In this document: one piece after another, positions 28,776 to 64,000 of the stretch
Position numbering within the stretch: the stretch's first letter is position 1
How the letters are laid out: each line of letters begins with the position of its first letter
Assembly (NCBI GenBank): GCA_037176725.1
Contig: JAZBRS010000049.1
Coordinates: 12,914,001-12,978,000 of the forward strand
Reading direction: 5' to 3'
Origin: Posidonia oceanica
Lineage: Eukaryota; Streptophyta; Magnoliopsida; Alismatales; Posidoniaceae
Length of the DNA stretch: 64,000 bases
Translations under genes and position numbers: made by a program
Notes under the pieces: generated by a model
Database searches by the model: none
What the model was told of the DNA's origin: nothing
The model's input: the letters and a program-made list of their open reading frames with translations, nothing else

Positions 28776-28887
28776 CGTTGGCCGCTGGTTTTCCAATGTA
28801 TAACGTTGGCCGCTGGTTTTCCAGCATCTAACGTTGGCCGCTGGTTTTCCAGCATCTAACGTTGGCCGCTGGTTTTCCAACATCTAA
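28776..28887 (+). repeat. 28-bp tandem hairpin array in the B LTR, 4 copies
   Basis: Units start at 28776, 28804, 28832 and 28860. Each contains CGCTGGTTTTCCAGC or a close variant, a self-complementary core with a TTTT loop. Confidence 0.85.
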
Positions 28888-29063
28888 CATGGAAGCCCAG
28901 TGCCAGCCACAAACTTTCTTTATTTGGCCAAATACAAAATCCGTGTTTTTACCTTCTTTAGACTTTGTTGACCAGTCAAGGCAATTAACAGCAGTTTAAT
29001 GACACTTAATCCAGTTTTAGTTGGGGAATATTCCTTTATCCTGGCAGCTGTGCCTCGGAGGTT

Positions 29064-29119
29064 GTTATACGCTGGGATTCCAGCTTATAACGTTATGCGC
29101 TGGATATCCCACGTATAAC
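29064..29119 (+). repeat. Two abutting 28-bp hairpins in the B LTR
   Basis: GTTATACGCTGG-GATT-CCAGCTTATAAC (29064-29091) is followed directly by a related hairpin starting GTTATGCGCTGG (29092-29119). The length equals the unit of the array at 28776, but the arm sequence differs. Confidence 0.7.
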
Positions 29120-29182
29120 ACTTCTGAAACAGGAAATTTTGCTGACTTGGCCTTTGTGTCTATATTTGTTCCTCCCCTGTTT

Positions 29183-38815: not shown

Positions 38816-38875
38816 TGTTGACACCCCATCTTGGCAGGCCCGGACCCTTGGAGCCCTCTTGGTGATTGCTGGATC

Positions 38876-38912
38876 AAACCCCTAACCAAACCCTAACCCT
38901 AATCCTCCTCTC
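38876..38912 (+). promoter_or_regulatory. Telobox-like CCCTAA motifs at the start of the D LTR
   Basis: AACCAAACCCTAACCCTAAT contains AAACCCTAA, the plant telobox. More copies occur at 40147-40166 (AAACCCTAAAACCCTAAT). The run is too short and irregular to be telomeric. The 3' LTR keeps all of them. Confidence 0.45.
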
Positions 38913-41576: not shown

Positions 41577-41618
41577 CCTGACGTCGGGAGGACATCTCAG
41601 ACGCGGACTCAGGTACAT
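41577..41618 (+). promoter_or_regulatory. Splice-donor-like site in the D LTR
   Basis: GGACTCAG|GTACATTT, cut after 41612, preceded by TGACGTCGGGAGGACAT, which matches the E1 sequence before its donor. With the acceptor at 45773 it would remove a leader intron of about 4.2 kb. Confidence 0.6.
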
Positions 41619-44254: not shown

Positions 44255-44350
44255 CTAGAAAGACCGATTCTCGGGCGTGTCGGGGGTGCCTAACACCTTC
44301 CCCGCGCGTAACAGGAGTCCTTGCCCTGTCTTCTGGCCCGTAATGACCGT
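44255..44350 (+). repeat. Conserved Tat/Ogre LTR block (D copy)
   Basis: Contains AGAAAGACCGATTCTCGGG, GGGGTGCCTAACACCTTCCC, GTAACAGGAGTCCTTGCCCT and a GTAATGACCGT end; matched in E1, C and the solo LTR. Confidence 0.82.
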
Positions 44351-44498
44351 ACTGCCCTTATCCTAGGCTAGAGTCATCTCATTTGCATGTATTTGCATTT
44401 GTTTCTTTTGCATTGCTTTGCTTTGCATTTCTTGCTCGGTTTTGCGCGTTAATTCACGCATTACCCCGGTTTTCCTCGTCTTCCGTTAATAGACTTGG

Positions 44499-44509
44499 TG
44501 GCGACTCTG
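44499..44509 (+). other. PBS-like motif inside the D LTR
   Basis: TGGCGACTCTG repeats the first 11 bases of the true PBS 128 bases downstream. It follows CGGTTTTCCTCGTCTTCCG, which is also found before the same motif in E1. Confidence 0.6.
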
Positions 44510-44626
44510 ATTTGTCTTATCTTTCCTTTTTCTCCTCGATTTTAAGTGTTTTCGAGTTGAGCCTCTTCCTCGGATCCAATCGCCGCTAAAAATCAGCGAG
44601 CCTGATTCCGATCGGGATCGCTACAG

Positions 44627-44644
44627 TGGCGACTCTGCTGGGGA
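44627..44644 (+). other. Primer binding site of element D, tRNA-Arg type
   Basis: TGGCGACTCTGCTGGGGA starts one base after the LTR end. Ogre elements are known to prime from tRNA-Arg; the sequence fits what I recall for them. Confidence 0.75.
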
Positions 44645-45956
44645 TTAGACTAGACTCCGGCTTTCGTTCCCGGCTTTTCGCTCGCTTGTTTTGCAGCTTT
44701 GTCTGCCTTGTGTGCCTTCTTCGCCTGTTTTACTCGCTTTTCTGTGCAAGTTCCTAGCGAGTCGCTTCGTGACTACTCCGCTTAGGTTCTCGCACCTCTT
44801 TCGCTTCGGTCTTTGCTCTCTTTCTGCCTGGCTTTGCTCCTTTGCCTGTTTATTTACTTATTGTCTTGCTTATGCTCTTATTTCCTTTACAGTCTGCTTA
44901 CTTTTACCTTGCTTTACCTTACTTGCTCATTATGGCTTTAATTCTTGCACATTGCATGTCTACATACTTTGTTTGGCTAAAATACATGCTTTTTGGATGT
45001 TGAATGCTTCTTTTACACCCTTGCTATGTCACTACGCACGCACATACTATGCTTACATGCCTTTTGACTTGATGAATATTCCTTTTTCACCATCATATTC
45101 ACAAACACTCGCACATGCCATGAACATGCCTTTTGTTGTGTTGTATGATGGTTGCTTGCCATTTTGACTGATTTTCTTCCCTTTTGCACTTGCCATGCTT
45201 AGGATAGTAGAGACTTGTCTGCTTCCCCCATGGTTAACTAAAAAATGCAAGTAAAAAGAACTTCTAGGGGCAACTAGAGACTACAAACAATCCTTCACTC
45301 CCTTTGGTTAATAAAATGTACAAGATAAAAAACTCTAATCATTTGCATAAGCATCATATAGGGCATGCATTCTTCTCCTCTGAGTCCACCTACTAGTCTG
45401 CGAAGGACGGTTCCGGCCTCTTGTTCCACTGCTTTGGGCGTGGCATAAGTTGGTCGGTCCATCCCCTCCTTGTCCGGGGGTCGTGTCGGTGTTAGTAGAG
45501 GGTACCACCCACGCTTTGGCGGGGTAGAGGCCACCAACGCACCACCCTGTCATTACCTGAGCTTTGGGCCGGGAGTTAGACAGGGGACCTACTTTTTCTG
45601 ACCTGAGTCGGTGACCCATACATCCAGGGATACCCGGAGTAGACAACCTTGCTAGGAAACACTAGTTAGGTAAGGGGGCATACTAGAAAGCATGCACATC
45701 ATTCATGCCACTTAACTAACTCATTTGCATTCATCTTTTAGTTTCTAACCCTAATTTCCTTCTGTTGTGTCAGCGTGATTGGTAAGCGAGTTTCCCTTTG
45801 CCAGAGCTCGAGTATCGACCCCCGTTGACGCCCTTTTGCGACTTAGTTCGCGACCATTCCCCTTCCGAGCTATCCGCACTTGCGACGATAGCTCCCCTTA
45901 GGAAGTACCGCTTGAATACTCGTCGCAGCCCTGTTCTCACACGCTCTAGGTCAGCG
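44645..45956 (+). other. D leader, with a strong splice acceptor candidate
   Basis: No gene is recognised; the 44691-45167 frame has no motif. At 45745-45773 CTAACCCTAATTTCC followed by TTCTGTTGTGTCAG gives branch-point-like sequence, a pyrimidine tract and AG, a convincing plant acceptor 184 bases before the gag ATG. Open gag frame extends upstream of that ATG but has no earlier ATG. Confidence 0.55.
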
Positions 45957-47213: not shown

Positions 47214-50123
47214 ACTTGGAACGACCTCAGTCAGGCGTTCCTGGAGCAATACTCCTTCAACCTCGATCTTGTCCCAAAGAGGGCGGACTTGATCGCTATC
47301 AAGCAGAACTCTGGCGAGCCGTTCGGGGAGTACGTCGGCCACTGGCGCGCCCTTGCCTCTCAGGTTCGAGATAGACCCTCTGACGAGGAATCTATCAAGA
47401 TCATTATCAAAGGGGCGCAGCCGTCTCTCGGAGCTCTGCTTAGCATTCAGCCAGTCACTACTTTTGCGGCACTCATCAGAGCTGGAGCGCGCGTAGAGAG
47501 TTCTTTGCGGAGTGGCAACTTCCCAGCTCTCTCTGCGTTCGCTAAGCAGGCAGCGATAAGCAGCAACAGTGTCAACAGCAGCACCTTCAACAACAACAAC
47601 AGCAGCAGCAACAACAACCGCCCGAAAAGGAAGGATTCGCTGAAACCCACTGTTGCATTCGTCGATTCTCCTGCTGTGCCTGTTCGCTTGCCGTCTCGGC
47701 CTGCCCCAGCTCAGATGGTGTACGCTCCTGCACCTAGGAACCCGCACACACCGCACATCACTACCACCGCTAGACCGGTCTATCCTGCCGCACCGGTTCA
47801 GCAAGGCTCGCACCCAAGGCAAAGAAGACCACCCGCTGAGAGGAGGAATTTCACCCCACTGGTGGAACCACTCACGGCCATCTTGCCGAAGGTAGCATCG
47901 CTCCTGAAGTTCCCGGAGGTTCGTCCGCCGCCAAGCCCTCTGCCGCATTGGTTTAGGCCGGACCTCTTCTGCAATTTCCATCGAAGTGTCGGGCATTCGA
48001 CGGATAATTGCTTCTCCCTGCGGAACGCGATTCAGGACCTGATCGAATCGGGAACGATTGTGATCGACACGCACGAGGCTTCCACTCAAGCACGCACTCA
48101 TGCATCTGCATCTCCAGCTGTTTCCCCGCATCCTGGCATCGTCTGCCAACCTTTACCGGAGCACTCTTATCCGGGAGGGGCGGGAACCTCAGGCGTCCAC
48201 TCTGTCTTTCCTTCTGGGCCCGCTACTTCTGTGGTAGACCCTTCCGATCTTATCTCTGACATCTCTGAGCCTTTCCCGGTCAGTCTCTATCTCGCGGCAG
48301 TTGCCGGCTCCGAGTCGGGAATCCATTTGATCCGACCGTGTGCCAGGCCGGAGCGCCCTCTCGCGCCTCCCACCATGCTCCCTCAGGCTCAATCTCCTGT
48401 ACACCTTTTGGCTAGAGCCCAGCCTAGTTCTCCCATTCACCTTTTAGGGCAGCCTCAGCTACACCTTCTAGGCAGACCTCAACCTGCCCCAGCCTTCCCA
48501 CCCCAACAACCATACCCACTAAATAGACCTCAACATCCTGTAGGTCCCCCTGTAACCCCTCCTGTGCTCGCAGCACATGCTCCAGTCGTCATTGACTTGA
48601 CCCTGGACACCCATCGCGTCCCTTACAGCTACGCCACAGAAATGTGCGCGGAAGTAACGCGATCGGGGAGGGTTTATAGGCCCCCAGCACCGGCAACTAG
48701 GCCAACTCACCCTGGACCTGTTATACCCCCACCCTCAGGCCAACCCTTAGCAGATCCAACTCCAGATCAGCCCGTAGCTAGCCAAATCCCTAGCCAGCCT
48801 ATAGTAACCCAGCCTCCTAGCACTACCCCTTTAGAACCTGCTAGAATCACCCCTCCAGCTGCTAGGAGAAGCCAACCTAAAGCGGACCTAACTTCCCAGC
48901 TTAAGAAGGTTAAAGCCGACATCTCCATCTGGGATTTGATCCACACTTCTGCCGAGCACCGCGAGGCTTTTCTTCGCGTGTTCCAGGCTGCTCGTGTGTC
49001 CCAGTCCATTGAGCCTTCTGCCTTGGAGAGCATGGTTGGGTTAATCGCGGAGCCCCAGGTCATCTCTTTCACGAGTGATGAGCTACCTCCGGCAGGGATT
49101 AATCATAACCAGCCCCTATTCGTCACGGTGCAGTTCAAAAGCTTTCGCATTCCCCTAACACTGGTTGATAATGGGTCAGGCCTTAATGTCTGCCCCTTGC
49201 ATACAGCAACCAAGCTCGGATTCAAAGCCGAGGATATCACGCCAGCCGTGAAGGGAATGACTGCTTTTGACAACACTCACCATGACGCTCTAGGGATTCT
49301 GATTATCCCTCTGGCTATCGGTCCGGTCGTCTTCGACGTAGAATTCTATGTCGTCGACTTGAAGCCTAACTTCAATCTTCTGCTTGGGCGCCCTTGGCTC
49401 CACAAGCATCAGGTCCTTCCTTCGATCCTCCATCGAATGATAAAGTACCGTCGTGGCGATGATGTCATTGTCGTCATGGCGGAGAACTTTGAGAAGGAGC
49501 GGATTGAAGCAGTCTCTCTTGTGTCTTCGCAATCTATCCCGTTTGACCCCGAGACTTCTGAAGCCCTCTATCGCGTTAACCGGTGCGAGCCAGTTAACTT
49601 CGTTCCTGATCTTGAACGTGTCAACTCCTTGACCGTTCACAATAACCCCTTTCGAATGGTCGAGAATGTATGTCACAGGTGGGGTTACACAAAGGGTACG
49701 CCGCTCGGGCGTCACGGCCAAGGGATCGCGGAGCCGATCGTAGCAGTGGAGCGAAGGAAATCTAAAGGCCTCGGTTACGAACCCAAGCCCAACGAAGATC
49801 ACTGCTTCCAGCTCAAAGCCCATGCACCAGCCATTCCCAGAGACCTCACTAACTTTACCAGTGCAGGAATTCTGGGATCAACCGACTACCAAGCCACAAC
49901 GCCGACAGAGGATTGGGTGTGTATTGAGGACTACTACTCGGATGAGGAGCAGTTTGATGCAACAGAGGCAGTCCCAATCAACTCAGCAGAAACAGTGGTC
50001 AGAGCAAAGGCCCCACAGTCAGTCTATTTAGCTCTCCCTCTGGCAGAAACAGCAGGCAGCTCAGCAGGCTCTGTGGCAGATGCAAGTTCTCATCCTTTTG
50101 CAGCCACAACAGCTTCTCAAGAT
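47214..50123 (+). CDS. gag-pro: Gag C-terminus, aspartic protease and G-patch-like segment of element D
   Basis: Open for 970 codons. It holds the gag end (WNDLSQAFLEQYS to about 47500), a knuckle variant CX2HX4HX4C (CNFHRSVGHSTDNC, near 47970), a Pro-rich spacer of about 300 residues, and the protease (49070-49480): SFTSDELPPAG, LVDNGSGLNVCPL with the Asp codon at 49167-49169, and LLLGRPWLHKH. A G-patch-like region follows (about 49670-49790): WGYTKGTPLGRHGQGI and KGLGYEP. DNG instead of DSG or DTG is, as I recall, common in Tat-branch proteases. The segment ends at TAG 50124. Confidence 0.85.
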
Positions 50124-50126
50124 TAG

Positions 50127-53100
50127 ACAGCAGCAGTGCAGGAGTCAGAGACACTCCTTCTGGCAGAACCAACATGCTACCAGCGGTCACAGCAACATCA
50201 GTGCCACTGCCTCCATCTCTGGAGGGGTAGTCCATCAACTCAGTCAGCAGCGTGGCCCAGCCCGCTCTCTCAGCATCATCTTCAGGAATGCAGCTGGCGC
50301 AGTCCGCTCCGTGTTCTCCTGACAACCAACAGCAGCTCTCATGGCGTCAGAGGCTGCGCTCTCTCAGTTACGGCCCGATACAAAAGGCCAACTGTGCACT
50401 ACATTATCTGGGCCCTTGAGCCCTCCAAAGAGCACCCCTGCTTACTCTCCGACAGTGACCTTGAAAGCTTATTCATCAGTAGCACCGCTGGCCTGCTATT
50501 TGGACCTTCTACATCAGAATTGCCATCAGCGGACGCGCCCGTGAACCAGATCATGCGGATTCCAAGGGCAGCAATCCGTCTTGCAGCCGGGCCAGTGCCG
50601 CAGGCCCCCGGCGCCTACTACGTCGACTCCCCCTCAGACGAGGAAGAAGGAGTGGTGATAGAAGCCCAGGTCGATTCTTGGATGTCTGACTTAGAGCTAC
50701 TTTATCAAGAACAAATCAAGTCAATAGCAGAAGACCTGGCAGACCATCAAGCTGCAGAAAGGAAAGGAAAAGCCGTAGTTACAGATCCTCCTCTGCAAGA
50801 GGACCGTGCTTCTATCATGGTCCTAGAAGACTCAGCAGTGCCGGACTCCCCTAGACCAGATGAGCTCATCACTCTTCAACCTGAAGGCGGGTCTAGGTGG
50901 TTTCTGCAACCCATGCCTCACCTGAGCGAGACATCGAGCGGCAGTAACCAGGTCAGCCGCCAGTCCGGCGTATCCTCCACGAGCACACTAGAAGACCCAG
51001 AGGGGGGAGCATCAGCAGTAGATGCAGCAGCAGCAGAGCAGAATGCCTCAGCAGCACAGTTAGCAGAGCAGTCAGCAGTATCAGCAGCAGAGTCAGTTGA
51101 GCCCTCAGCAGAATCAACAGAGCACTCAGCAAAGCCAGTCAGGCCAGAGCAAACAGCAGAAGGAGTTGCTGGGACGGGGGTCGCGCACCGAGGCTACAAG
51201 AATACTCGAGTGAGCGTGACCGTCCTGAAGCGTCACCAGGGCCAAGCAGCGGAACACATGCACTCTTTCGACATCACAAATCCTTCTTTCGAGAAAGAGA
51301 TCCTCTCAGAACTTGTTGCTTATGGAGAAGAGGATGATACGAGCATGGGTGAGACTGACGAACCTTTGCCCGAGTTCCGGCCCTATGACGACGACCCAGA
51401 AGGCCCCAACCTCCATGTTGAAGAAGAAACGGAGGCTGTTAACATTGGCACGGCTGAGGAAGTCAGAGAAGTTTGCATCAGTGCCCAGCTGTCCGCCCAG
51501 GCTCGAGCTGAATTCATCGCATTCCTGAAAGAATATGCGGATGTCTTCGCCTGGAGTTATGAAGATATGGTCGGCCTTGACATAGAGATAGTGGTGCACA
51601 ATCTGCCATTAAATCCAGATGCCAAGCCAGTAAAGCAGAAGCTAAGAAGATGGCGACCGCAGTGGCTGCTCATGATCAAAGAAGAGATAATGAAGCAGCT
51701 TGGAGTCAACTTTTTGAAGGTCGTTCTTTATCCTGAATGGCTGGCAAACATTGTACCTGTGCCCAAGAAAGATGGCCGAATTCGGATCTGTATCGACTAT
51801 AGGGACCTGAACAAGGCGAGTCCCAAGGACGACTTTCCATTGCCCCACATTGACGTCCTAGTCGACAATACAGCGGGCCACAAAATGCTCTCCTTCATGG
51901 ACGGCTTCTCTGGATACAATCAGATCAAAATGGCAGAAGAAGACATGGAAAAGACTTCATTCATCACCCCTTGGGGAGTCTTCTGCTACCAAGTCATGCC
52001 GTTCGGCCTGAAGAATGCTGGTGCAACCTATCAGAGGGCCATGACTGTGCTAATCCACGACCTCATGCACCAAGAAGTGGAGGTCTATGTAGACGATATG
52101 ATTGCTAAAACCAAAGAGCCCGAGGATCATCTTGCCTGTCTCAGAAAGCTCTTTGACCGTCTACGGAAGTACAAGCTGCGCCTGAATCCCAAGAAGTGCG
52201 TATTCGAGGTATCTTCTGGCAAATTGCTCGACTACATTGTTAGCCAAAGGGGGATTGAGGTAGACCCGTTGAAAGCGCAAGCCATCATGGACATGCCACC
52301 CCCTGGAACTGAAAAAGAAGTCAGAAGTCTGCTTGGGCGTTTACAATTTATCAGTCGCTTCATTGCACAGCTTACGCCCATCTGTGAACCCATTTTCAAG
52401 CTCTTGAGGAAGAATGCGCAGATTCACTGGAGCGAGGAGTGTCAAGCTGCATTTGCCAAGATCAAGGAGCTGCTGACCAAGCCTCCTGTCCTGGTCCCGC
52501 CTACGCCAGGGAGACCCTTACTTCTCTACCTTTCTACCACGCAGCATTCCATGGGCGCCGTCTTGGGCCAACATGACGAATCTGGTAGAAAGGAGCGCGC
52601 CATCTACTACCTGAGCAAGAAATTTAATGAATGCGAAGCCAGGTACAGTACACTGGAGAAGACTTGCTTGTCACTTGTCTGGGCTGCACAGAAGTTGAGA
52701 CACTACTTGATGGCATACTCAGTGCAGCTCTTATGCCGGCATGATCCCATCAAATTCCTCTTTCAGAAGCCGGCTATGGTGGGCAGATGTGCCAAGTGGC
52801 AGGTGTTATTGTCCCAGTACGACATCACCTTTGTCACACAGAAGTCCATGAAGGGTCAAGCAATGGCAGACCATCTTGCTGACCTCCCTCTGCCTGAATA
52901 CCAGCCCCTCCAGACGCAGTTTCCTGATGAAGACATTCTCTTTGCAATGGAGGACTCTGAGCAGAAAGATCCTGAAGAAGCAGAGGAATGGCAGCTCTAC
53001 TTTGATGGTGCAGTCAACAAGAAGGGCCGAGGCGTAGGCGCAGTGCTGACCACGCCCCAAGGACAGATGACTCCTTTCGCAAGGAAGCTGACTTTCACCT

Positions 53101-54371
53101 GCACAAACAACGAAGCAGAGTACGAAGCGTGCATCCTAGGGTTGAAAGTAACCCTCGAGCATGAGGCGCAGAAGCTGCATGTGCACGGCGATGCCATGCT
53201 GGTGATTTCTCAAGTGAACGGCGATTGGAAGACAAAAGATCCCAAGCTTGTGCCGTATCACGAACACCTGCTGAGGCTGATGAGAGAGTTTGAGAGTATC
53301 CGCTTCACATACCTGAACAGAGCAAAGAACGCGTATGCAGACGCCCTAGCAACTCTGGCATCCTGGCTCACCATTTCAGAAGACAACACTGTGGATGTAT
53401 CAGTCACTCGCATTGAACAGCCTGCATACTGCATGAGCATAGAGGAAGCGGATCCCGCAGAGGAGCAGCCATGGTATCGAGATATAAAATCTTTCCTAGA
53501 GTCTGGCAGTTTTCCTCCCGATACCACAGCAGCAGACAAGAGAACTCTGGCGCGTCTGGCGTCAAAGTATGTGTTGGGGGCTGGGCAGCTGTACAGAAGG
53601 TCATACAATCAGATGCTACTGCGCTGCCTGAACAAATCGGAGGCTGACACGCTGATGCTTCAAGTGCATGCGGGGACCTGTGGCCCGCACATGAACGGCG
53701 TCCTCCTGGCCAAGAAGATCATGCTGCAAGGTTATTTCTGGCAGACCATGGAAGCCGACTGCTGCCGGTTCGTGCGTAGATGCCACAACTGTCAAGTCCA
53801 TGGAAACTTCATCAAAGCCCCTCCGCATCAGCTGCACAACATGTCTTCGCCATGGCCTTTCTCCACCTGGGGGATCGATGTCATCGGCGCCATCCACCCT
53901 GCTGCTTCAAATGGTCATCGTTACATTCTGGTAGCGATCGATTACTTTACCAAGTGGGTGGAAGCAGCCTCTTACAGGACAGTCACCAGTGCAGCAACAG
54001 AAAAATTTATCAGAAACAATATTGTTGCCCGATATGGGGTCCCGCACTCTGTCATCTCTGATAACGGCTCAAACTTCGTTGCCAAAAGGATCGAAGAATA
54101 CCTGCAAAGTCTCAAGATCAAGCACCATCGATCCTCGCCCTACCGGCCTCAGATGAACGGGGCAGTGGAATCTGCAAACAAGAACATTGTCAAGATCCTG
54201 AAGAAAATGGCAGAAACCCACAAGGATTGGCACGATAAGCTCCCATACGCGCTCTGGGCGTACAGGACATCAATCTGGACCTCTACAGGAGCCACTCCGT
54301 ACTCTCTGGTGTACGGCATGGAAGCGGTGTTACCTGTTGAAGTGGAGATCCCCTCTCTGCGAATCTTGTAG
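50127..54371 (+). CDS. pol: Pol segment of element D: RT, RNase H, archaeal-type RNase H, integrase
   Basis: A low-complexity Ala/Glu/Ser region comes first, then RT from about 51600: LPLNPDAKPVKQKLRRWRPQ, CIDYRDLNKASPKDDFPLPH, MDGFSGYNQIKMAEED, MPFGLKNAGATYQR, and YVDD at 52086-52097. The gypsy RNase H covers about 52500-52880. A second, archaeal-type RNase H covers about 52990-53370 (LYFDGAVNKKGRGVGAVL, TNNEAEYEACILGLK, NAYADALATLAS), diagnostic of the Tat branch. Integrase starts near 53640: VHAGTCGPH and CHNC zinc ligands, then D, D and E in TWGIDVIGA, VISDNGSNF and GAVESANKN. The frame stops at TAG 54369. Confidence 0.92.
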   Translation, partial: TAAVQESETLLLAEPTCYQRSQQHQCHCLHLWRGSPSTQSAAWPSPLSQHHLQECSWRSPLRVLLTTNSSSHGVRGCALSVTARYKRPTVHYIIWALEPSKEHPCLLSDSDLESLFISSTAGLLFGPSTSELPSADAPVNQIMRIPRAAIRLAAGPVPQAPGAYYVDSPSDEEEGVVIEAQVDSWMSDLELLYQEQIKSIAEDLADHQAAERKGKAVVTDPPLQEDRASIMVLEDSAVPDSPRPDELITLQPEGGSRWFLQPMPHLSETSSGSNQVSRQSGVSSTSTLEDPEGGASAVDAAAAEQNASAAQLAEQSAVSAAESVEPSAESTEHSAKPVRPEQTAEGVAGTGVAHRGYKNTRVSVTVLKRHQGQAAEHMHSFDITNPSFEKEILSELVAYGEEDDTSMGETDEPLPEFRPYDDDPEGPNLHVEEETEAVNIGTAEEVREVCISAQLSAQARAEFIAFLKEYADVFAWSYEDMVGLDIEIVVHNLPLNPDAKPVKQKLRRWRPQWLLMIKEEIMKQLGVNFLKVVLYPEWLANIVPVPKKDGRIRICIDYRDLNKASPKDDFPLPHIDVLVDNTAGHKMLSFMDGFSGYNQIKMAEEDMEKTSFITPWGVFCYQVMPFGLKNAGATYQRAMTVLIHDLMHQEVEVYVDDMIAKTKEPEDHLACLRKLFDRLRKYKLRLNPKKCVFEVSSGKLLDYIVSQRGIEVDPLKAQAIMDMPPPGTEKEVRSLLGRLQFISRFIAQLTPICEPIFKLLRKNAQIHWSEECQAAFAKIKELLTKPPVLVPPTPGRPLLLYLSTTQHSMGAVLGQHDESGRKERAIYYLSKKFNECEARYSTLEKTCLSLVWAAQKLRHYLMAYSVQLLCRHDPIKFLFQKPAMVGRCAKWQVLLSQYDITFVTQKSMKGQAMADHLADLPLPEYQPLQTQFPDEDILFAMEDSEQKDPEEAEEWQLYFDGAVNKKGRGVGAVLTTPQGQMTPFARKLTFTCTNNEAEYEACILGLKVTLEHEAQKLHVHGDAMLVISQVNGDWKTKDPKLVPYHEHLLRLMREFESIRFTYLNRAKNAYADALATLASWLTISEDNTVDVSVTRIEQPAYCMSIEEADPAEEQPWYRDIKSFLESGSFPPDTTAADKRTLARLASKYVLGAGQLYRRSYNQMLLRCLNKSEADTLMLQVHAGTCGPHMNGVLLAKKIMLQGYFWQTMEADCCRFVRRCHNCQVHGNFIKAPPHQLHNMSSPWPFSTWGIDVIGAIHPAASNGHRYILVAIDYFTKWVEAASYRTVTSAATEKFIRNNIVARYGVPHSVISDNGSNFVAKRIEEYLQSLKIKHHRSSPYRPQMNGAVESANKNIVKILKKMAETHKDWHDKLPYALWAYRTSIWTSTGATPYSLVYGMEAVLPVEVEIPSLRIL

Positions 54372-54713: not shown

Positions 54714-56193
54714 CCGAAAGCGGCCCCGTTGCAGATGCCCTTCTCCCACCTGCACTTGCATTCTCGCCTTCTTGCTTCAACTCTACTTCAAATCATCATC
54801 GTCATCCTTTCAACTCTTGCATTTTTTCTTTTCAAATTATCATTGTCATCCTCTCAAACATCGCATCTTCTGCCCGGTGATGACAACCGGAAGTGCTTGC
54901 CTGCTCTGGAAAGAGTCACCCTGCCTCACTTGGCACTACTTAGATGTCTTAGCGAGTGAGGGAGCCACCACCAATAAGGACAGGCGAACTGCCCAATCTC
55001 ACAAGGACATACACCTCTGAGGGAGAAAAAAATGTTAGGTTGTGAGCTTGAAAAAGTGAGAATAGACATCTAGGTTTGGGCACCTCCAAGGAACAGAAGA
55101 CGAAGACAGAAGCCGGCCCTAGAGATAGGGGTGTGCAGTCTAACCCTGCTCCTTCTACCCATCACACAGCAGACCCAAAGCCTAAATCCATTACAATTCA
55201 AGCACCCTTCTTTTGCCACCAGAATGGGGATAGCAAAAGCCTGAAAAAAAAAAAGAAAAAGATCAAGCAAAAAAAAAAAAAAAAAAGAGATAGAACAAAG
55301 ACAAAAACAAAAAAGGAAAAAAGCAAGCAAAACAAAAAAAGAAGAAGAAGAAGAAAAAGGCAAAGGTAGCCCAAAAGCACAGGCACCGCTATCCCCCATA
55401 CTTTACTAGAGATCCCCAGCATGTCAAGCCTGACAAAGGGGTCTACCACATCCTCCCAAGAGCAAACACATACCTTCTCCTAGCTAGGGGCAGAGAAAGA
55501 CTGCATACCTATGAGGGAGAAACCTTTCAAAAAAAAAAAAGAGAGCCGAAAGAATAGGTGTAGGTCCCGAGAGTGCAGCCAGTAGCCTGTCCTCACCACA
55601 TCACCACCTGTATAATGCCAACAACCTGTTCCGGAGCGCCACCAATAAGCCGAGAGTCTGAGTAGGGCCCAGTGAGTCTAGGACCACTCCCTTCCTCTGC
55701 AGCAGGCACCAAAGCACTCCGTACGCTGAGGGCACTCAAGCATACCCATCCACCCAAGCATACCCATCCATTCAAGCATACTTATTCATCCAATAATATT
55801 CATCCTCATGAGCATATCACTAGCATCTTGCATTCATGCATCTTCCTTCTTTCCTTTCCCCTTCCGCCAATCTCTCCGCTCTGCAACACGCTCAGGTCCT
55901 GAGGCAGTACTTCTCCCCAGCAGAGGCACATCGACGACACTCAAGCTGCGCTGGTCCAGATTTCCTGCCAACCCTCGCCCCCGTGTCCGCAAGACTGCTG
56001 CAGAATCCCCCTGCTTATCAGTGCTCAATTGCTATGTTCTGTTATCACTTTGCCTAGATGCATATTGGAACTACATTTTCAGTCTCAGTTTCTGCTTATT
56101 GTCAGTGATTACATACCTGCGAGATCTGACTGTTTATTGATAGCAGGTACCTCAAGCCTTGCAGTAATCAGCCTGTCTTCTGCAACCAGTATA
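54714..56193 (+). other. Spacer between pol and the extra ORF of element D
   Basis: No gene is seen. An A-rich tract with long A runs lies at 55240-55370 and a shorter one at 55528-55541. Repeated CATACCCATCCA-like units occur at 55738-55790. An in-frame extension of the extra ORF upstream to 56029 has no ATG and may be leader or an upstream exon; TAGCAG|GTACCTC at 56146 could equally be an acceptor or donor. Confidence 0.5.
55240..55370 (+). repeat. A-rich tract in element D
   Basis: Runs of up to 18 A with scattered G and C on the plus strand. A similar A/G tract lies in the B leader. Confidence 0.8.
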
Positions 56194-57396
56194 ATGGGTT
56201 TTCCTACTCTGCTAACTCCCGCACGCTGCTCGGAAACCCTGCAAGAATGGATCAGCAGGCTCACCCAACAAGACTGTGAAAAGTTGCTCCTGTGGGGTAT
56301 ACCAACCAAGCTGCTAAAGGCCGCTGATGTGGAGGTCAGCCGCCACCTTCTGTGTGCCGCCGCGAGATTCTGGAAGCCGGTGCACCATGTCTTCCGTTTC
56401 AACAAGACTGAGCTGACACCTACACTGGAAGAGGCACGTCGGATATGCGGCTTTTCAAAGATCCTGGGACCGCCTGTTTTCATGAGGCGCGACGGATATC
56501 TTCGGGTCCTGAGCCAACTGACTGGGCTCTCCACTCAAGACTGCCAACAGAAGCTAATCTGCACCAGTGGACCAGAGCCCATGCTTCGCCTTGCACACTT
56601 TGATGATATCTTGAACAAGCGTGCTGACCTCGGAGACGAGCTGTGGCTCCGAGGATTCGTCATCCGCTTTCTGGGCGAACTAATCTTTACTCATGGCCGA
56701 CTGACAGTGGCCATCGAGGTCGCAGAGATTGCATTAGCTGTGGTGACCCAGCACATAGACCTGGCACCGGTCGTCTTGGCAGAGACTTATCGCAGGCTAG
56801 ACCGCATTTCTCATCGCTGCCGCCACTTCCACGGTTGCGGAGCACTCATACAAGTCTGGCTGACCGCGCACTTAGAGATGGACCTTCTGCGCCCTCAAGT
56901 GCATGCTTTCGAAGCTTACTGCAGCAGCGCCCGTACCAGAGCAGACAAGAGCGTCAAAGACGAATATGAGAGGCTGTCAGCACTGACTGACGATGCTGTG
57001 ATCTGGCGCATCGTTCCCTCTGCAGCAGAGCCATTCACAATCTTCTTCAGCGCGCGTGACACGCGGCTGATCATTCTTCCAGGCTTCACAGCAGGCGTAG
57101 AGTACCATCCAATCAGGGTCATGCGCCAGTTCGGCTTCCAGCAGGGCGCCTTCATTGACAGTACAGTGCCCGAGCTTCTACAGACTTATCCTCTCAGCAC
57201 CACTGCCTCAACCAAGAAGCTTGCTAGTCTGATGCAGCATGGGGTCCAATCTACAGACATTGCAGCTGTGAGAGGTACAGGATGCACTCTTGATTATGAA
57301 GCTGAAGTCCGACAGCTCTGGCCAATCACTGAAATCCTGCCAGGCGGCCCCTTATTCCCCGACTCCAGGCAGCCAAAGAAGGCCCGGGTTGACTAG
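56194..57396 (+). CDS. Extra ORF of element D, plant mobile domain/DUF7745-like, 400 codons, intact
   Basis: The ATG at 56194 (ATAATGGGT) gives MGFPTLLTPARCSETLQEWI and the frame ends at TAG 57394. It has no stop or frameshift, unlike gag-pol. The region KPVHHVFRFN then TELTPTLEEARRICG, an aromatic and Trp-containing N-terminal domain, resembles the plant mobile domain (aminotransferase-like, MAIN/MAIL1 family) and the related DUF7745. The C-terminus is basic (RQPKKARVD), which could act as a nuclear signal. Such domains are known both in plant genes and inside Ty3/gypsy elements; the retroelement function is unknown. It sits in sense between pol and the 3' LTR and could be expressed by splicing. 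Family assignment is by eye and only moderately sure. Confidence 0.72.
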   Translation: MGFPTLLTPARCSETLQEWISRLTQQDCEKLLLWGIPTKLLKAADVEVSRHLLCAAARFWKPVHHVFRFNKTELTPTLEEARRICGFSKILGPPVFMRRDGYLRVLSQLTGLSTQDCQQKLICTSGPEPMLRLAHFDDILNKRADLGDELWLRGFVIRFLGELIFTHGRLTVAIEVAEIALAVVTQHIDLAPVVLAETYRRLDRISHRCRHFHGCGALIQVWLTAHLEMDLLRPQVHAFEAYCSSARTRADKSVKDEYERLSALTDDAVIWRIVPSAAEPFTIFFSARDTRLIILPGFTAGVEYHPIRVMRQFGFQQGAFIDSTVPELLQTYPLSTTASTKKLASLMQHGVQSTDIAAVRGTGCTLDYEAEVRQLWPITEILPGGPLFPDSRQPKKARVD

Positions 57397-57627: not shown

Positions 57628-58042
57628 AGAGCATCTGCAGGCCCGCGACACCAAGCTCCGCCGTCCGGCGTCCCCAGCTGGTCATCCCCGGCTGGACCGC
57701 TGTCCCTTGCGGGCTGGCACCCCAAACTGCCCGGCGAAAGGTCCGTCAACCTGTCATCCTCCTCAGCTGTTCATCCTCAGCTGAGTCCCTTGCGGGCTGG
57801 CACCCCAAACTGCTCGGCGAAAGGTCCGTCAACCTGTCATCCTCCTCAGCTGTTCATCCTCAGCTGAGTCCCTTGCGGGCTGGCACCCCAAACTGCCCGG
57901 CGAAAGGTCCGTCAACCTGTCATCCTCCTCAGCTGTTCATCCTCAGCTGAGTCCCTTGCGGGCTGGCACCCCGAACTGCTCGGCGATGGGTTCGTCAACC
58001 TATCATCCATCCACTCGCTTATCTATCTTTGCATCCTGATGC
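57628..58042 (+). repeat. 83-bp tandem array, 4 copies
   Basis: The GGGCTGGCACCCC core starts at 57711, 57794, 57877 and 57960, spacing exactly 83. The linker contains CCTCAGCTGTTCATCC and CTCAGCTGAG. Confidence 0.88.
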
Positions 58043-58112
58043 CAGGGGCGCATCGGCCATCCCCTGGTATCATCCTGATACCAGGGGCATCTTTTGGCCG
58101 CCCTGTGGTATC
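58038..58112 (+). repeat. Two long hairpins, GATRCCA..TGGTATC
   Basis: GATGCCAGGGG pairs with CCCCTGGTATC (58038-58071). GATACCA pairs with TGGTATC (58077-58112). Confidence 0.75.
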
Positions 58113-58147
58113 ATCCCCAGCTGATCATCCCCAGCTGAGTCCCTTGC

Positions 58148-58760
58148 GGGCTGGCACCCCAAACTGCTCGGCGAAAGGTCCGTCAACCTGACACTCTTCT
58201 CGGCTGGTCATCCCCAGCTGAGTCCCCAGTTGGTCGTCCCCAGCTGAGTTCTCTGCGGGCTGGCACCCCAAACTGCTCGGCGAAAGGTCCGTCAACCTGA
58301 CACTCTTCTCGGCTGGTCATCCCCAGCTGAGTCCCCAGTTGGTCGTCCCCAGCTGAGTTCTCTGCGGGCTGGCACCCCAAACTGCTCGGCGAAAGGTCCG
58401 TCAACCTGACACTCTTCTTGGCTGGTCATCCCCAGTCGAGTCCCCCGTTGGTCGTCCCCAGCTGGATCATTATCTCTGCGGGCTGGCACCCCAAACTGCT
58501 CGGCGAAAGGTCCGTCAACCTGACATTCTTCTCGGCTGGTCATCCCCAGTCGAGTCCCCAGTTGGTCGCCCCCAGCTGGATCATTATCCTTGCGGGCTGG
58601 CACCCCAAACTGCTCGGCGAATGGTCCGTCAACCTGACACTCTTCTCGGCTGGTCATCCCCAGCTGAGTCCCCTGCTGATCGCCCTCAGCTGAGTCTCTT
58701 GCGGGCTGGTACCCCCAAACTACTCGTCTGACAAGCACGACACTCTTGTCATCACTCTCT
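58148..58760 (+). repeat. 109/114-bp tandem array, 6 copies
   Basis: The GGGCTGG core starts at 58148, 58257, 58366, 58480, 58594 and 58703. Spacings of 109, 109, 114, 114 and 109 show two length variants. Units contain CCCCAGCTGAGTCCCC and GTCAACCTGACA. Confidence 0.88.
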
Positions 58761-58766
58761 GCTTTC

Positions 58767-58841
58767 GACGCCAAGGACGCGCTGGCCAACCCCTGGTGTC
58801 ATCCCGACACCAGGGGCATCTTTTGATCGCCCCTTGGTATC
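58767..58841 (+). repeat. Further long hairpins, GACRCCA..TGGTRTC
   Basis: GACGCCA..TGGTGTC (58767-58800) and GACACCA..TGGTATC (58806-58841) are in the same order and spacing as the pair at 58038. Confidence 0.7.
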
Positions 58842-58906
58842 ATTCTTTCCCTCTTTCCCCTATGACGTTCCTGGCATCATGGGATGATTTCTTCTCATCA
58901 TTCCCT

Positions 58907-59134
58907 TATCCCTTCTTTGCCGGCCGATAAGTCCGATATCTTATCATTCTCATCATTCCCTTATCCCTTCTTTGCCGGCCGATAAGTCCGATATCTTATC
59001 ATTCTCATCATTCCCTTATCCCTTCTTTGCCGGCCGATAAGTCCGATATCTTATCATTCTCATCATTCCCTTATCCCTTCTTTGCCGGCCGATAAGTCCG
59101 ATATCTTATCGATCAACACTTCTCATCATGATCT
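58907..59134 (+). repeat. 55-bp tandem array, 4 copies, with GATAAG hairpin
   Basis: CGGCCGATAAG starts at 58921, 58976, 59031 and 59086, with a fifth copy at 59581. Each has GATAAGTCCGATATCTTATC, arms GATAAG/CTTATC. Confidence 0.9.
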
Positions 59135-59588
59135 CATCTCCCTCTTTAGCTTAATTTCTCATCATGATCTCGTCTCCCTCTTTAGCTTAATCTCTCATCA
59201 TGATCTCATCTCCCTCTTTAGCTTAATTTCTCATCATGATCTCGTCTCCCTCTTTAGCTTAATCTCTCATCATGATCTCATCCCCCTCTTTAGATTAATT
59301 TCTCATCATGATCTCATCTCCCTCTTTAGCTTAATTTCTCATCATGATCTCGTTTCCCTCTTTAGCTTAATCTCTCATCATGATCTCATCTCCCTCTTTA
59401 GCTTAATTTCTCATCATGATCTCGTCTCCCTCTTTAGATTAACCTCTCATCATGACCTCATCCCCCTCTTTAGCTTAACTTCTCATCATGATCTCGTCCC
59501 CCTCTTTAGATTAATTTCTCATCATGATCTCGTCCCCCTCTTTAGATTAACTTCTCATCATGATCTCATCCCCTCTTTGCCGGCCGAT
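59121..59588 (+). repeat. 36-bp tandem array, 13 copies
   Basis: TCTCATCATGATCTC recurs every 36 bases. ATGATCTC[AG]TC alternates along the array, hinting at a 72-bp higher-order unit. Because 36 is a multiple of three, a frame of 178 codons stays open (12-residue SHHDL repeats). It has no domain and I do not call it a gene. Confidence 0.9.
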
Positions 59589-59639
59589 AAGTCCGATATC
59601 TTATCATTCTCATCATGATCTTATCCCCTCTTATCAATC

Positions 59640-60660
59640 AATCAATCACTCGTGCTAGGCTGATATCCGAAACTATCTCAGGCTGATATTCCTAAACTAT
59701 CATCTATCAATCACTCGTGCTAGGCTGATATCCGAAACTATCTCAGGCTGATATTCCTAAACTATCTTCTGGTCGATCCATGGTCGGCCCGCAGTTGTGT
59801 TATACGGCTGACATCCAGTAACTGTCCCTCGTAATTGCACTTTTCCAGTTGATAGGTCTGTAAACTATCCACCGGTTGACAGGACCGTAAACTATCGTTT
59901 CAGTTGATAGGTCTGTAAACTATCGCGTCCAATTACGTTATACGGCTGACATCCAGTAACTGTCCCTTGCAATTGCGGTTTCTAGTTGATAGGACTGTAA
60001 ACTATCCTCCAGTTGATAGGTCTGTAAACTATCCACCGGTTGACAGGACCGTAAACTGTCGTTAGGCTGATACTCCTAAACTATCACCAGCAATTGCATT
60101 ATACGGCTGATATCCAGTAACTATCCCTCATCATTGCGCGTTTCCAGTTGATAGGTCTGTAAACTATCCGCCGGTTGACAGGACCGTAAACTGTCGCTCC
60201 AGTTGATAGGTCTGTAAACTATCCGCCAGTTGGTAGGACTGTAAACTACCACGCGCAATCATGTTATACGGCTGACATCCAGTAACTGTCCCTCGCAATG
60301 CCGTTTCCAGTTGATAGGACTATAAACTATCCTCCTGTTGATAGGTCTGTAAACTATCCGCCGGTTGACAGGACCGTAAACTGTCGCTCCAGATGATAGA
60401 CTGTAAACTATCCGGCATTGCGTTATACGGCTGATATCCAGTAACTATCCCTCATGGTTTGTGGTTTCCAGTTGATAGGTCTGTAAACTATCCGCCAGTT
60501 GATAGGTCTGTAAACTATCCGCCAGTTGATAGGACTGTAAACTATCCCACAACCATGTTATACGGCTGATATCCAGTAACTATCACTCACAACTGCCTCC
60601 GGTTGACAGGACCGTAAACTGTCACTCCCGGTTGATAGGACCGTAAACTATCCGGACGAT
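59640..60660 (+). repeat. Covarying hairpin array of element D
   Basis: About 30 units of 20-30 bp with arms GATAG/CTATC, GACAG/CTGTC, GGTAG/CTACC or GATA/TATC and loops such as GTCTGTAAA or GACCGTAAA. Longer repeats of 120-180 bp start at TTATACGGCTGA. Examples are 59851-59869, 60042-60060, 60232-60250, 59810-59826 and 60109-60125. Confidence 0.82.
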
Positions 60661-61202
60661 AAGCCCGTCACCTTATCATTTTTTTTCTCCTTTTCGGCGT
60701 GGCCTTGTCCCAGGAAGACGAAGTCACGCACCCCCTTTCTGCGATAGGAGAGGTGGCCTCTCTCCCCTCGCACCCTTCTCCCCTGCTAGCTTGCTCCCCG
60801 GGCGGGGACCAGCTGCACCCTGCTTTCCTTGCTTTGTCGCGCAGGTCTGGCCTCCCTGCCAGATATTCGCGCCACATCGCACCCTTTTTATCATTTTTCC
60901 TGCATCATCTCTGCACTTTCTTAGCTAGCGCTGCATATCACTCCAGTATCACTTGCACAGCATCAGCATTTTCTTCTAGCTGCACTAACTTTTATACTAA
61001 CTCTTGCATTGCACTCGCATCAGCAAGCATACACACAGCACAGCATCCATCTGCACTGGCATCTTGCATTGCGGCAACGGGCTACGATCTTCGGTGCATC
61101 CGCCGAATAAGTAGCTCACGCCCATAGCAACCCGCTGCTTCCGCCAGTCAGATGGGGTGTCTTATCAACCCTAAGCAGCGGCCGCGCTCCGCTTGCCCTC
61201 TC
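60661..61202 (+). other. Pre-tract region of element D, no gene seen
   Basis: The GCATC/TGCA-rich zone (60880-61080) has no coding motif. The last 130 bases, from CGGTGCATCCGCCGAATAAG, resemble the matching part of element C and may hold conserved 3' signals. Confidence 0.55.
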
Positions 61203-61219: not shown

Positions 61220-64000
61220 TGTTGACACCCCATCTTGGCAGGCCCGGACCCTTGGAGCCCTCTTGGTGATTGCTGGATCAAACCCCTAACCAAACCCTAA
61301 CCCTAATCCTCCTCTCTACCCTCCAAAATCAGCCTGTCTTGACCTAAACCTTTACCCCCTTCCCAACCTCAAAACCTAACCAAAAACCATAGGAAAACCC
61401 ACCACTATCCACTCAACAAACCTACCCAAGAACTTAGAAATTTCCAAACCTAACCCATTCCCAAAAACCCTAGAAAACCTAGGTGAAACTACCATTTTTC
61501 TACACCTTGAAACCCCTCCAAAACCTCCTTAGAATCAAACCAAAATTTCAGGACCAACACCTCAAATCCTAGACTAGCCACTCACCAATTTTCACCCCAT
61601 TCCAAGACCCTTAAGACCCTCTTTCACCCAAATTATCATTTTCTCTCTCCTCTCTCTCTCCTGATTATCATCTCTCTTTTCATCCCCTTCTCATCCTTTT
61701 TCTGGTCTGGCTGTGGGCCCCCTCTGTGCTTCTATCCTTCCTCTATCTTATCCCTATTTTTACTTTATTTTTAACACTTTTTCTGAATTTTAAAAATCGT
61801 TTTCCTCCAACCTATCTCTTTTCCCCTTATCTCCCTCTTTTCTCCATTTCTTTCCTCTTTCTCTTTTCCTTTTCTCTCCTTTGCAAAAATCCACAAAAAC
61901 CCATAAAAATCTGTAAAACCTCAAAACATAAAAGAAAGAAATCAGTACTCTAAGAAAAACAATTAAAAAATATTAAACAAGCAATTAACAACTTAAACTT
62001 AACTAAATCAAGCTAAAAGGAAAACCAAACATGCAAGCTAAAAAATGCAAAACAAATCAAAAGAAAACACTGAAAAATCAAGAAAAAACTAAAATGAGAT
62101 CTAAACCCAGCAAAAATAAAAACCCCACTAAAAGAATTAAAAAACAAACCCTAAAAATAAGAATTAAAAACCAAACACTAAAACAAGTAATTAAAGAAGG
62201 CAAAAGACTTAACCTAATAAACATAAGAAAAGCAAGTTAAAAACCTAATTAAAAAAGAAAATAAAAAACAGATCTGAAGGACTTAAAAACATCCTACCAA
62301 ACCAGAAAAACCCAACCAAAAACTTCAAGAAAAATCAATGAATAAAAATCAAAACATAACTTAAAAGACTTAAGAAGGAAAAACCCTAAGAAGACTACAA
62401 CTTAAAAATCTAAAAGACATCCTGGTTAATGGGAAAATAAATCCTAAAAAATCCTAATCAGTACCCTAAGTGTCCAACAAGGGAAACATAATTTTAAAAA
62501 GGGTTTAACAAACATTTAATCAAGAGATAACTAATTAAAAGCGAAACCAAAACCCTAAAACCCTAATCAAGCCCAAAACACATTAATCAACTCAAAATGA
62601 CCATTAAAAATCTTAATTAAAATCCTAATCTACAGCAAAACTCTTCTAATATTTTTATTTATTTTTAGTCTATTTTTACTAATTTTATTTCCCCATTCTA
62701 CCCTCTCTTTCTTTCTTACTTTTCTTTTCCATTCTTTCTTTTCTTTACTGGGCTTATCAGCCCGTTCCCTTTCTTCTCTATTTCCTTTTTCTTTTTTCTC
62801 GGCCCACAGTCCGGCCTTCCCCACCCTTCTTCTTCCTCCTCTCCTCCTCTGTGTTTTTCTCCACCGGCTTCTCCCGCGAACCTTCGGCTACAGAGTTCCC
62901 TCCTCCATTCGAAATTCAAGCCTCCATCACTTCAATCCACAGCAGCCCGCCGCTCTCCTTCCTCTCTGCGGCTTTTCCGGAGCCGGTCGCCCCGTCCCCT
63001 CCGCTGCAGTAACCGCCGGCCGAGTTTGAATTCTCAGCTCGCGCCCAGCAGCAGCAGCTCCTCATTCATAAGCCGCCCGTCCTCCCTTCAATCCAGAGTG
63101 TCAGACAGAGCCGGAGTGAGAGCAATCCAGTGAGAAGCCAGAGAGTGGAGAGCAGAATTTCACTTCTTCCCCACCTGTGCGACCCTCCTCCTTCTTCCTC
63201 TTCATCCTTCCATTTCCAGAGAGAAGATGACCAGTGAGAGTAGAGCTTGAGAGGTCCTTGACATCCCGGAGAAGGGCTGCAATCCCAGAGCTTTCCCACA
63301 CCCAGACCTTCTCCATTTCCCTCCTCAAAATCCACCAGACTCTTCCCCTTCTTTTCCAATAGCCCAGCACCACTTCAAGCCTCTATCTTTCTTCCAATTA
63401 CTCCCCCAATTTCACCCCAAAACTCAGCATCCTTCCCGGCCATTCCACCACCCAAATCACCCCTCAATCACCCCCTGATCACCCAACACACCAGACCTGC
63501 AACCCAACACAACCCACCACACCATTCCCTTCACCACAGTCCGCAGCCTCCTCCCAGTTTCCACCCCGACAATCCTTGAACCACCACCTTTCTAGAGCCT
63601 CCAACCTCGAACCTAACCGTTCACCACAGACTGCAAACTCCACTACAAACACCTGCATCAGCCACTGACCAGAAATCCGATCAACTCCCAAATCCTTTCC
63701 ACAGCCTCCAGAACAGCAATCCAATCACCCAGAATCACTCCCCGCACCTCCAGCAATCTTCCAGAACACTCCATCCAGCCTGAGGAGCAGCAAACACCCT
63801 CCCCGACCTCCGGCAGCATTCTGAGAATCCAAAAGTGCCGAATCCTCACCCGAGCTGTAGAGCTTCAGTCCGGTCGATCAGGAAGCACCGGAGGGATGTT
63901 CTGAGGCAGCTCCAACCTTCGCGAGCGACTGACGATCACCGCCGCGACTGGACGAACGCCGCCGGCCACCTCTGGAACCCTTGACGTCGGGAGGACATCT
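61220..64000 (+). repeat. 3' LTR of element D, first 2.78 kb
   Basis: Collinear with 38816-41597, with about 19 substitutions and one deletion in a C run near 61357. It ends at the window edge within GGGAGGACATCT, just before the donor-like site. The remaining 3 kb are outside. Confidence 0.95.

Follow-up and report, generated by a model that had tools for sequence, protein, structure and literature searches.

A question raised by the 3′ end of a long terminal repeat (LTR) retrotransposon in Posidonia oceanica is why its 3′ untranslated region (UTR) holds so many short inverted repeats whose arms differ from unit to unit and remain complementary; namely, whether they reflect selection on a folded RNA, restoration at the DNA level or the spread of a few duplicated variants. 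The window analysed here is a stretch of 64,000 nucleotides (GenBank assembly GCA_037176725.1, contig JAZBRS010000049.1, positions 12,914,001 to 12,978,000, forward strand; positions below count from its first letter). Judged from its domains and LTRs, the carrier is an Ogre-like LTR element, young and on the + strand, and the array of repeats, which we call D, lies in its 3′ UTR. A first-pass annotation had reported dozens of inverted repeats there and proposed, from paired changes in their arms, that the structure is maintained or regenerated. The count is about right, with 18 units of one 27-nt type and eight of a second register family (six with a CCAGTAAC loop and two with a CCTAAAC loop), and the arms it named are present: GATAG/CTATC at 59851–59869, GACAG/CTGTC at 60042–60060, GGTAG/CTACC at 60232–60250 (inside TGGTAG/CTACCA), GACA..TGTC at 59810 and GATA..TATC at 60109. 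Our overall reading, to which we assign a rough probability of 0.58 from sequence comparison, is that the 3′ UTR modules are kept folded in the sense genomic RNA, mostly in pseudoknot order, as a scaffold that acts in cis.

Array D occupies about 1 kb of a 3.8-kb 3′ UTR. The analysis added three things to the earlier description: similar modules 5′ of D, at 57732–58751; a second stem, S1, interleaved with the main stem, S2; and a different array of the same plan in a second, related element (el2) on the minus strand, into which the focal element has inserted. The arm order is S1-S2-S1′-S2′, as in the D units CAGT-t-GATAG-g-ACTG-taaa-CTATC and CGGT-t-GACAG-g-ACCG-taaa-CTGTC. The arrays and unit classes are as follows.

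57702–58726, + strand: 5′ part of the 3′ UTR, with class III (CGG-cgaa-AGGT-CCG-tca-ACCT) and class IV (GGG-ct-GGCA-c-CCC-aaac-TGCC) units set in 83- and 109-bp tandem repeats
58724–58751, + strand: unit TCGT-c-TGACAAG-c-ACGA-cact-CTTGTCA, with an S1 sequence that differs from all others and an S2 hairpin found in 41 of 62 sequences
58892–59110, with an extra copy at 59581, + strand: 55-bp repeats with the class V unit CGG-cc-GATAAG-t-CCG-atat-CTTATC, the class without covariation
59120–59578, + strand: 36-bp tandem array without hairpin excess
59640–60660, + strand: array D, made up of 18 class I units and those with CCAGTAAC or CCTAAAC loops
60653–60677, + strand: last unit, CGG-ac-GATAAG-c-CCG-tcac-CTTATC
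36660–38300, − strand: 3′ UTR of el2, its upstream part interrupted by the focal insertion, with class II units (CGG-tc-GATAAGT-CCG-aa-ACTTATC) and class I, III and IV relatives

Hairpins were counted as non-overlapping, perfect stems of 5 bp or more around loops of 4–12, and compared with 30 dinucleotide shuffles. Array D holds 18 (shuffle mean 6.7, standard deviation 2.5, maximum 12), which by eye comprise 11 unit main stems, five cross-unit pairings (CTATC..GATAG) and two others; the el2 UTR holds 24 (9.3, maximum 16). Of the 18 register-aligned D units, 17 have a fully paired main stem and one has it interrupted by a C.A. There is no clear excess in the 5′ part of the focal 3′ UTR (14; shuffles 9.6, maximum 16), and the controls gave 14 and 6 in pieces of pol (12.7 and 12.1), 8 in the 5′ LTR (13.3), 5 at 44000–45600 (8.3) and 6 at 28740–29130 (3.3, maximum 7). 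A further piece inside the 5′ LTR, 42000–43600, has 16 hairpins (9.7, maximum 16), also no clear excess. The 36-bp array that adjoins D (59120–59640) has one hairpin against 3.0 in shuffles, so tandem repetition does not by itself produce the hairpins.

Related copies were drawn from the 2.96-Gb host genome. For the last open reading frame (ORF), 93 of 77,181 first-look candidates were scored, all at least 94% identical, and for the el2 tail 40 of 9,702, all at least 89% identical. Twenty focal-family UTRs were chosen from the lower part of the 93-copy list, which with that of the window make 21; from the 40 el2 copies, 12 were taken as loci and eight later as stretches, 20 in total (L052 is the el2 of the window itself, and the window letters were used in its place). 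The main covariation set has 62 sequences. Units were gathered by sequence distance to templates and not by pairing, and the classes overlap, in that some units belong to both I and II and class V units fall in the class II register. Viral contigs gave no match for the class II pattern or for the pol piece 52200–54368.

The main stem changes on both sides together. The focal family has 355 D-type (class I) units in 20 of 21 UTRs, 43 of them distinct, and five types make up 298 of the units. In a 24-nt numbering, four of these types are linked by clean double changes, A-T to G-C at 2/14 (S1) and 7/23 (S2) and T-A to C-G at 8/22 (S2), and the commonest differs from one of the linked types by a single T/A difference at position 12. 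Class II (12 el2-family sequences, 261 units, 138 distinct) has A-T/G-C at 10/20 and T-A/C-G at 12/18, with 89% of S2 paired (30–41% when slid) and 84% of S1 (5–55%). Class IV (62 sequences, 462 units, 98 distinct) has G-C/A-U at 7/20 and C-G/U-A at 8/19, and at 6/21 the pairs G-C, G.U and A-U are all present. Paired changes are therefore seen at seven pair positions in three classes, or five if those at positions 7 and 8 of classes I and IV represent one change each.

The first-pass annotation had suggested a covariation check, and S2 exceeds shuffles in four of the five classes: with every distinct unit counted, 0 of 500 shuffles matched the number of S2 cells changed on both sides in classes I (84), II (116), III (65) and IV (98), and with variants in at least two sequences the figures were again 0, 0, 0 and 0 of 500. 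A separate counter, run on the variants of classes IV, II and I that occur two or more times (28, 22 and 23), gave 0/500 on each of three measures, namely paired cells, both-side cells and covariation score; in the same classes, pairs with a change and pair types were not above shuffles. Sliding the alignments of repeated variants cuts pairing from about 96% to 15–53%. One alignment (A2) lacks five of the repeated class I variants, all from the el2 family; A4, which includes all 23, has the same outcome. In the later-fetched sequences L064–L071, S2 is paired in 98%, 95% and 95% of classes I, II and IV (10, 67 and 38 distinct units) and S1 in 83%, 89% and 79%. Because the shuffles leave relatedness in, more weight falls on the paired changes at seven positions and on the agreement of the later sequences. 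Taken together, the paired changes suggest that selection has kept structure rather than sequence, in line with the maintenance of structure proposed at the outset.

Wobble pairs bear on whether this structure is RNA or DNA. A G-C pair that has undergone one transition should read as G.U on one strand and as A.C on its complement, and the two would be expected at equal frequency without strand-specific selection. Among variants in at least five sequences, the S2 departures are G.U in the sense strand, at 9/21 in class II, 8/21 in class III and 6/21 in class IV (49 of 62 sequences), and there is no S2 A.C when class V units that fall in the class II register are excluded; class I units read in this register show mismatches of other kinds. 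Raw counts of G.U versus A.C, over both stems and overlapping classes, are 15/7 in variants of at least five sequences, 41/29 in two to four and 202/140 in one. In the later sequences, the S2 counts are 1/0, 24/9 and 26/7 for classes I, II and IV, and the S1 counts 3/5, 29/22 and 6/17. As many cells stem from few events, we give the bias without a probability. The shared S2 wobbles, being G.U in sense, speak for RNA over DNA in S2 and say nothing for S1. S2 is thus probably folded in the sense RNA.

The interleaved order recurs in further units, among them CGG-tc-GATAAGT-CCG-aa-ACTTATC in el2, TTAGG-c-TGATA-ct-CCTAA-ac-TATCA and CGG-cgaa-AGGT-CCG-tca-ACCT. A scan for interleaved stems on the element strand found 20 in D (59580–60690; shuffles 4.8, maximum 8), 15 in the 5′ part of the 3′ UTR (7.0, maximum 11) and 25 in el2 (7.7, maximum 12), counts that include some neighbour-unit or unrelated pairings. 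The opposite strand is likewise in excess (16, 13 and 20), as complementary arms necessarily produce. On the element strand, four of five controls have no excess (6, 6, 1 and 6 versus 8.8, 9.7, 8.9 and 5.8). When the limits are tightened, sense and antisense counts are 21 and 11 for the bin at 59201 and 12 and 9 for the el2 bin; a bin at 9601–11200 with strict counts of 7 and 11 was rejected, as it is AT-rich with no tandem array seen.

Of 23 unit types, 16 have an S1 of 3 bp or more that matches their own loop, compared with a mean of 8.3 when loops are swapped (fraction 0.00065), a result to be weighed in the knowledge that the list was made by hand and the test chosen after a broader one failed. 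Seven types with an S1 below 3 bp were kept in that list, and off-plan recurrent hairpins (CAGCTG, CCCCTGG and others of 71) and units seen only in L046 were omitted. In class I, S1 covariation was reached by 0/500 shuffles over all distinct units and by 26/500 and 37/500 in shared subsets, and at S1 pair 2/14 both sides are changed in 7 of 23 repeated variants. Unlike S1 arms also recur (TCGT/ACGA, TTAGG/CCTAA, TTGGG/CCCAA and TTGGGT/ACCCAA). By the groove and loop-length rules for H-type pseudoknots, the loops fit the sense RNA, with a short first loop over S2 and a longer last loop over S1, and are awkward in the antisense. In rough nearest-neighbour sums with an assumed pseudoknot initiation of +7 or +9.6, the pseudoknot lies below the S2 hairpin in energy in 12 of 12 units and 10 of 12, respectively. 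Rfam gave no match at the gathering score in 36000–64000, either to the ENE or to any other described RNA family. On balance, the sequences slightly favour S1, and hence a pseudoknot.

Arrays differ between copies. Of 21 sequences, 19 allowed the LTR to be located, 2978 to 4233 nt downstream of the fetched start (about 100 nt before the ORF end). In one focal copy, L046, class I units are missing and their place is taken by repeats of AGG-ct-GATA-t-CCT-taac-TATC, GGG-ct-GATAG-CCC-taa-CTATC and CGG-tggc-GAGT-CCG-tca-ACTC. The length range and this other array imply that arrays are replaced and the plan returns. Class II arrays are present in 17 of 20 el2-family stretches; of the eight later ones, five have 18–24 class II units, L067 has two, and L066 and L070 have none.

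Several results weigh against the folded, pseudoknot-ordered reading. All compared copies come from one host genome. S2 covariation is thinner in variants of at least five sequences (8 to 10 variants in each class; 14, 6, 21 and 0 of 500 for classes I–IV) and absent from class V (31 distinct units; 500/500 shuffles match). The arms of neighbouring units are able to pair, the last arm with the next first arm, as in the 5 of 18 D hairpins noted above. S1 is less well paired than S2 (88–91% against 98–99% in the alignments of repeated variants), its wobbles are of both kinds without a sense bias, and its covariation in classes II–V is no better than in shuffles (445, 399, 366 and 312 of 500). The S1 swap test over all 71 recurrent hairpins is not significant (20 versus a mean of 13.2, maximum 24; mirror control 14), and the LTR piece 42000–43600 has an excess of interleaved stems (12 versus 6.8, maximum 11). 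The best nested fold beats the pseudoknot in 1 of 12 units at +7 and 4 of 12 at +9.6. Nested folding against shuffled controls, another check that the first-pass annotation had put forward, gave no strand-specific signal: z was −2.0 in sense and −1.5 in antisense for D, and −5.8 in sense and −11.2 in antisense for el2 (20 shuffles each). Finally, a 4.7-kb stretch downstream of pol in L075, one copy of a third family with a related RNase H, contains no array, and its 3′ UTR may lie elsewhere. By eye, L075 has a possible coding region on the opposite strand.

In one alternative reading, simple S2 hairpins are kept in the sense RNA and S1 is a by-product of shared flanks, with CGG beside CCG. Nearly all of the covariation sits in S2, S1 has the lower pairing, the swap test on all recurrent hairpins fails, and certain modules of the el2 LTR (see below) are long hairpins without a constant S1. 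It does not readily account for the unit-specific S1 at the level of types, on the hand-made list, for the class I covariation of S1 or for unlike S1 arms such as TCGT/ACGA, TTAGG/CCTAA and TTGGGT/ACCCAA, and we consider it unlikely while giving it real weight. The spread of one or two ancestral variants by tandem duplication, which the first-pass annotation had named as an outcome that would overturn its proposal, can be extended to a few variants multiplied by duplication, unequal crossing-over and gene conversion, with structure unconstrained. The units are clearly tandem copies, dominated by five types, but at least five of the seven paired positions are independent, and one or two duplicated variants do not explain these. 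Moreover, pairs are often broken in rare class I variants and mostly intact in common ones, L046 and el2 carry different arrays of the same plan and later copies agree, so that we regard spread of this kind as extremely unlikely.

The remaining candidates act on DNA, and both had been offered in the first-pass annotation. Template switching during reverse transcription or replication could remake quasi-palindromes without structural selection; one such event can yield a paired double change, the arrays do turn over in length and type, and a link between repeats and abnormal strand transfers has been proposed (PMC7004042). Restoration would, however, give Watson–Crick pairs, whereas the recurrent S2 G.U lies on one strand and includes the commonest class IV unit. 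Two interleaved stems, the constant AA before the last arm in alignments A1, A3 and A4 and the 36-bp array beside D with its lack of hairpins also argue against it, and we judge it improbable. A DNA cruciform, or dimeric protein-binding sites with GATA-like half sites acting in DNA or complementary DNA, would suit palindromes with GATAAG/CTTATC cores and the presence of modules in the el2 LTR. A binding site would keep its half-site sequence rather than complementarity, but the cores vary (GACAG, GGTAG, AGGT, GAGT and GGCA), and the shared S2 wobbles favour one strand; this alternative is very unlikely. Neither a cruciform nor template switching is supported as the main cause: the widely shared S2 departures are G.U in sense, and neither idea predicts the interleaved stem.

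The coding and terminal features of the focal element are listed below.

38816–44625, + strand: 5′ LTR, TG...CA, 5810 bp
47289–50126, + strand: gag-protease ORF with a G-patch domain (Pfam; protease match under the Pfam cut-off)
50136–54371, + strand: pol ORF with reverse transcriptase, RNase H, second RNase H (RVT_3, in the aRH position) and integrase (Pfam, two pieces searched)
56029–57396, + strand: last ORF, with a plant mobile domain (PMD/DUF7745; Pfam)
61220–64000, + strand: 3′ LTR, cut by the window end

The 5′ LTR is 99.2% and 98.9% identical to the 3′ LTR over its two parts, the target duplication of 5 bp (AGATG, 38811–38815) is repeated directly after the 3′ LTR (L051:3031–3035), and a candidate primer-binding site, TGGCGACTCTGCTGGGGA, begins one base past the 5′ LTR. 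We call the element Ogre-like, in agreement with the first-pass annotation, on the basis of the domain features described in PMC6317226. Pfam matches in pol run in the order RT_RNaseH, RVT_3, integrase zinc-binding and rve, so that a second RNase H (aRH) lies between RNase H and integrase, a mark of the Tat clade and Ogre lineage (PMC6317226) that is common to Retand too. The extra ORF matches PF10536 and PF24924 within 56029–57393, and 57% of Ogre elements carry an extra ORF with the plant mobile domain (PMC6317226). A protein search with it returned 11 matches, nine unnamed ENA proteins from contigs of 1–2.2 kb and two Nicotiana proteins at 24–25% identity. In the Ogre lineage, the GAG-PROT and pol ORFs are about 274 bp apart and the gap is an intron in pea and Medicago; in the focal element, the two ORFs share one frame with a gap of 9 nt. 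The pol of el2, outside the window, has about 80% DNA identity to the focal pol over 3.07 kb. A G-patch domain is also found in an ORF of another element at 26137–26823. The domain is a feature of betaretroviruses, and in Mason-Pfizer monkey virus it lies by the protease.

Other palindromic features were seen in the window. Long-hairpin blocks at 58038–58114 and 58767–58843, 729 bp apart, have a paired difference (CCCCTGGTATC/GATACCAGGGG versus CCCCTGGTGTC/GACACCAGGGG), and el2 is similar by eye. A hairpin TTCGG..CCGAA lies about 110 bp 5′ of the 3′ LTR in both families, at 61090–61107 and at about 36629–36612 (minus strand). The el2 LTR (about 36498–33300, minus strand) has some seven pairs of scattered palindromic modules, GTTGGACGC..GCGTCCAAC, the inner stem of which is altered on both sides in sister copies, for example GGACGCAGG/TCTGCGTCC in L055 and GGACGTAGG/TCTACGTCC in L059. 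We rejected these modules as pseudoknots and call them long hairpins because their S1 candidates vary between copies. Palindromic repeats at 28776–28888 and 29064–29119, in a stretch that is LTR-like by eye, resemble them (GTTATACGCTGG..CCAGCTTATAAC; CGTTGGCCGCTGGTTTTCCAGC).

Hypervariable 3′ UTR tandem repeats are described for Tat/Ogre and Retand elements (PMC7004042 and PMC11963269, with Macas 2009 cited there); among plant Tat elements, tandem arrays at this site are widespread and a source from which satellite DNA arises (PMC7004042). The arrays here share their site between the last ORF and the 3′ LTR, their family specificity and their fast turnover. Passages of those accounts treat the repeats as DNA and a source of satellites; the units here appear to be folded-RNA modules with paired changes. 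A word search of the main texts of PMC7004042 and PMC11963269 found no mention of hairpin, secondary structure or pseudoknot. The first-pass annotation knew of no described function for such an array; this agrees with a 2025 Retand survey, which states that the origin and eventual function of these repeats are unknown (PMC11963269), although the arrays themselves had already been described. Tandem repeats at this position are thus known, and what looks new here, from the sequence comparisons, is folded-RNA modules with paired changes.

Structured RNAs with roles in other systems offer parallels. The upstream pseudoknot domain in the 3′ UTR of tobacco mosaic virus has roles in replication and translation and binds eEF1A (PMC4683447); it too is a row of pseudoknots in the 3′ UTR of a plant RNA, but it has three, compared with dozens of units here, and the carrier here is an LTR retrotransposon. 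The ENE of Evade, an Arabidopsis Copia element, forms a triple helix with the poly(A) tail in the 3′ UTR and protects the RNA from deadenylation (PMC12501189). It is a working precedent for stability conferred by structured RNA in a plant LTR-element 3′ UTR, although that motif is triple-helical with poly(A) and the modules here have no Rfam match. In Ty1 and Ty3, structured genomic RNA is tied to packaging, with the Ty1 signals at the 5′ end, unlike here. A review that covers the transport element of MusD names Ogre as intron-bearing (PMC12786077), and an element with introns may share the need for such transport. The MusD element belongs to a mouse LTR element and is a single structure as far as the passage tells (PMC12786077). 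In the literature searched, which left most subscription papers outside, we found no pseudoknot described in the 3′ UTR of a plant LTR retrotransposon, and the lone pseudoknot passage in an Ogre context concerns mouse MusD. The constitutive transport element of Mason-Pfizer monkey virus is a structured RNA 5′ of the 3′ LTR that exports unspliced genomic RNA; it has no sequence link to array D.

We propose that the 3′ UTRs of both families are made of short RNA modules in which selection would preserve the fold in sense genomic RNA while sequence drifts, and whole arrays would be replaced while the fold plan persists. Each module has a main stem, S2, of 4–8 bp, whose pairs and paired changes are seen in both families and in the later sequences; most types would add an S1 of 3–6 bp interleaved in H-type order, mostly with an A-rich last loop. 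The array may then work in cis as a repeated scaffold that binds Gag or a host protein and aids export, stability, translation or packaging of the genomic RNA; copy number would give avidity, so that single units would be free to turn over. A cis scaffold of the genomic RNA is a tentative assignment, favoured because class I arrays occur in 20 of 21 focal UTRs (the last with another array) and class II arrays in 17 of 20 el2 stretches, and because these are sense-read and apparently shape-selected. Export is perhaps attractive for an intron-bearing lineage; sequence cannot tell it apart from stability, translation or packaging.

Speculatively, the hypervariable Ogre 3′ UTR arrays could in general be modular scaffolds, sets of interchangeable pseudoknots selected for shape and number and nearly free in sequence. 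If the arrays are folded-RNA modules, the open question of their function becomes testable, and ‘hypervariable’ would fit their sequence and not their structure. They would then be a plant retroelement counterpart to the viral pseudoknot domains, the MusD export element and the Evade ENE. If the scaffold reading is true, it would explain rapid turnover together with persistence, and the satellites derived from these elements would begin as arrays of structured RNA.
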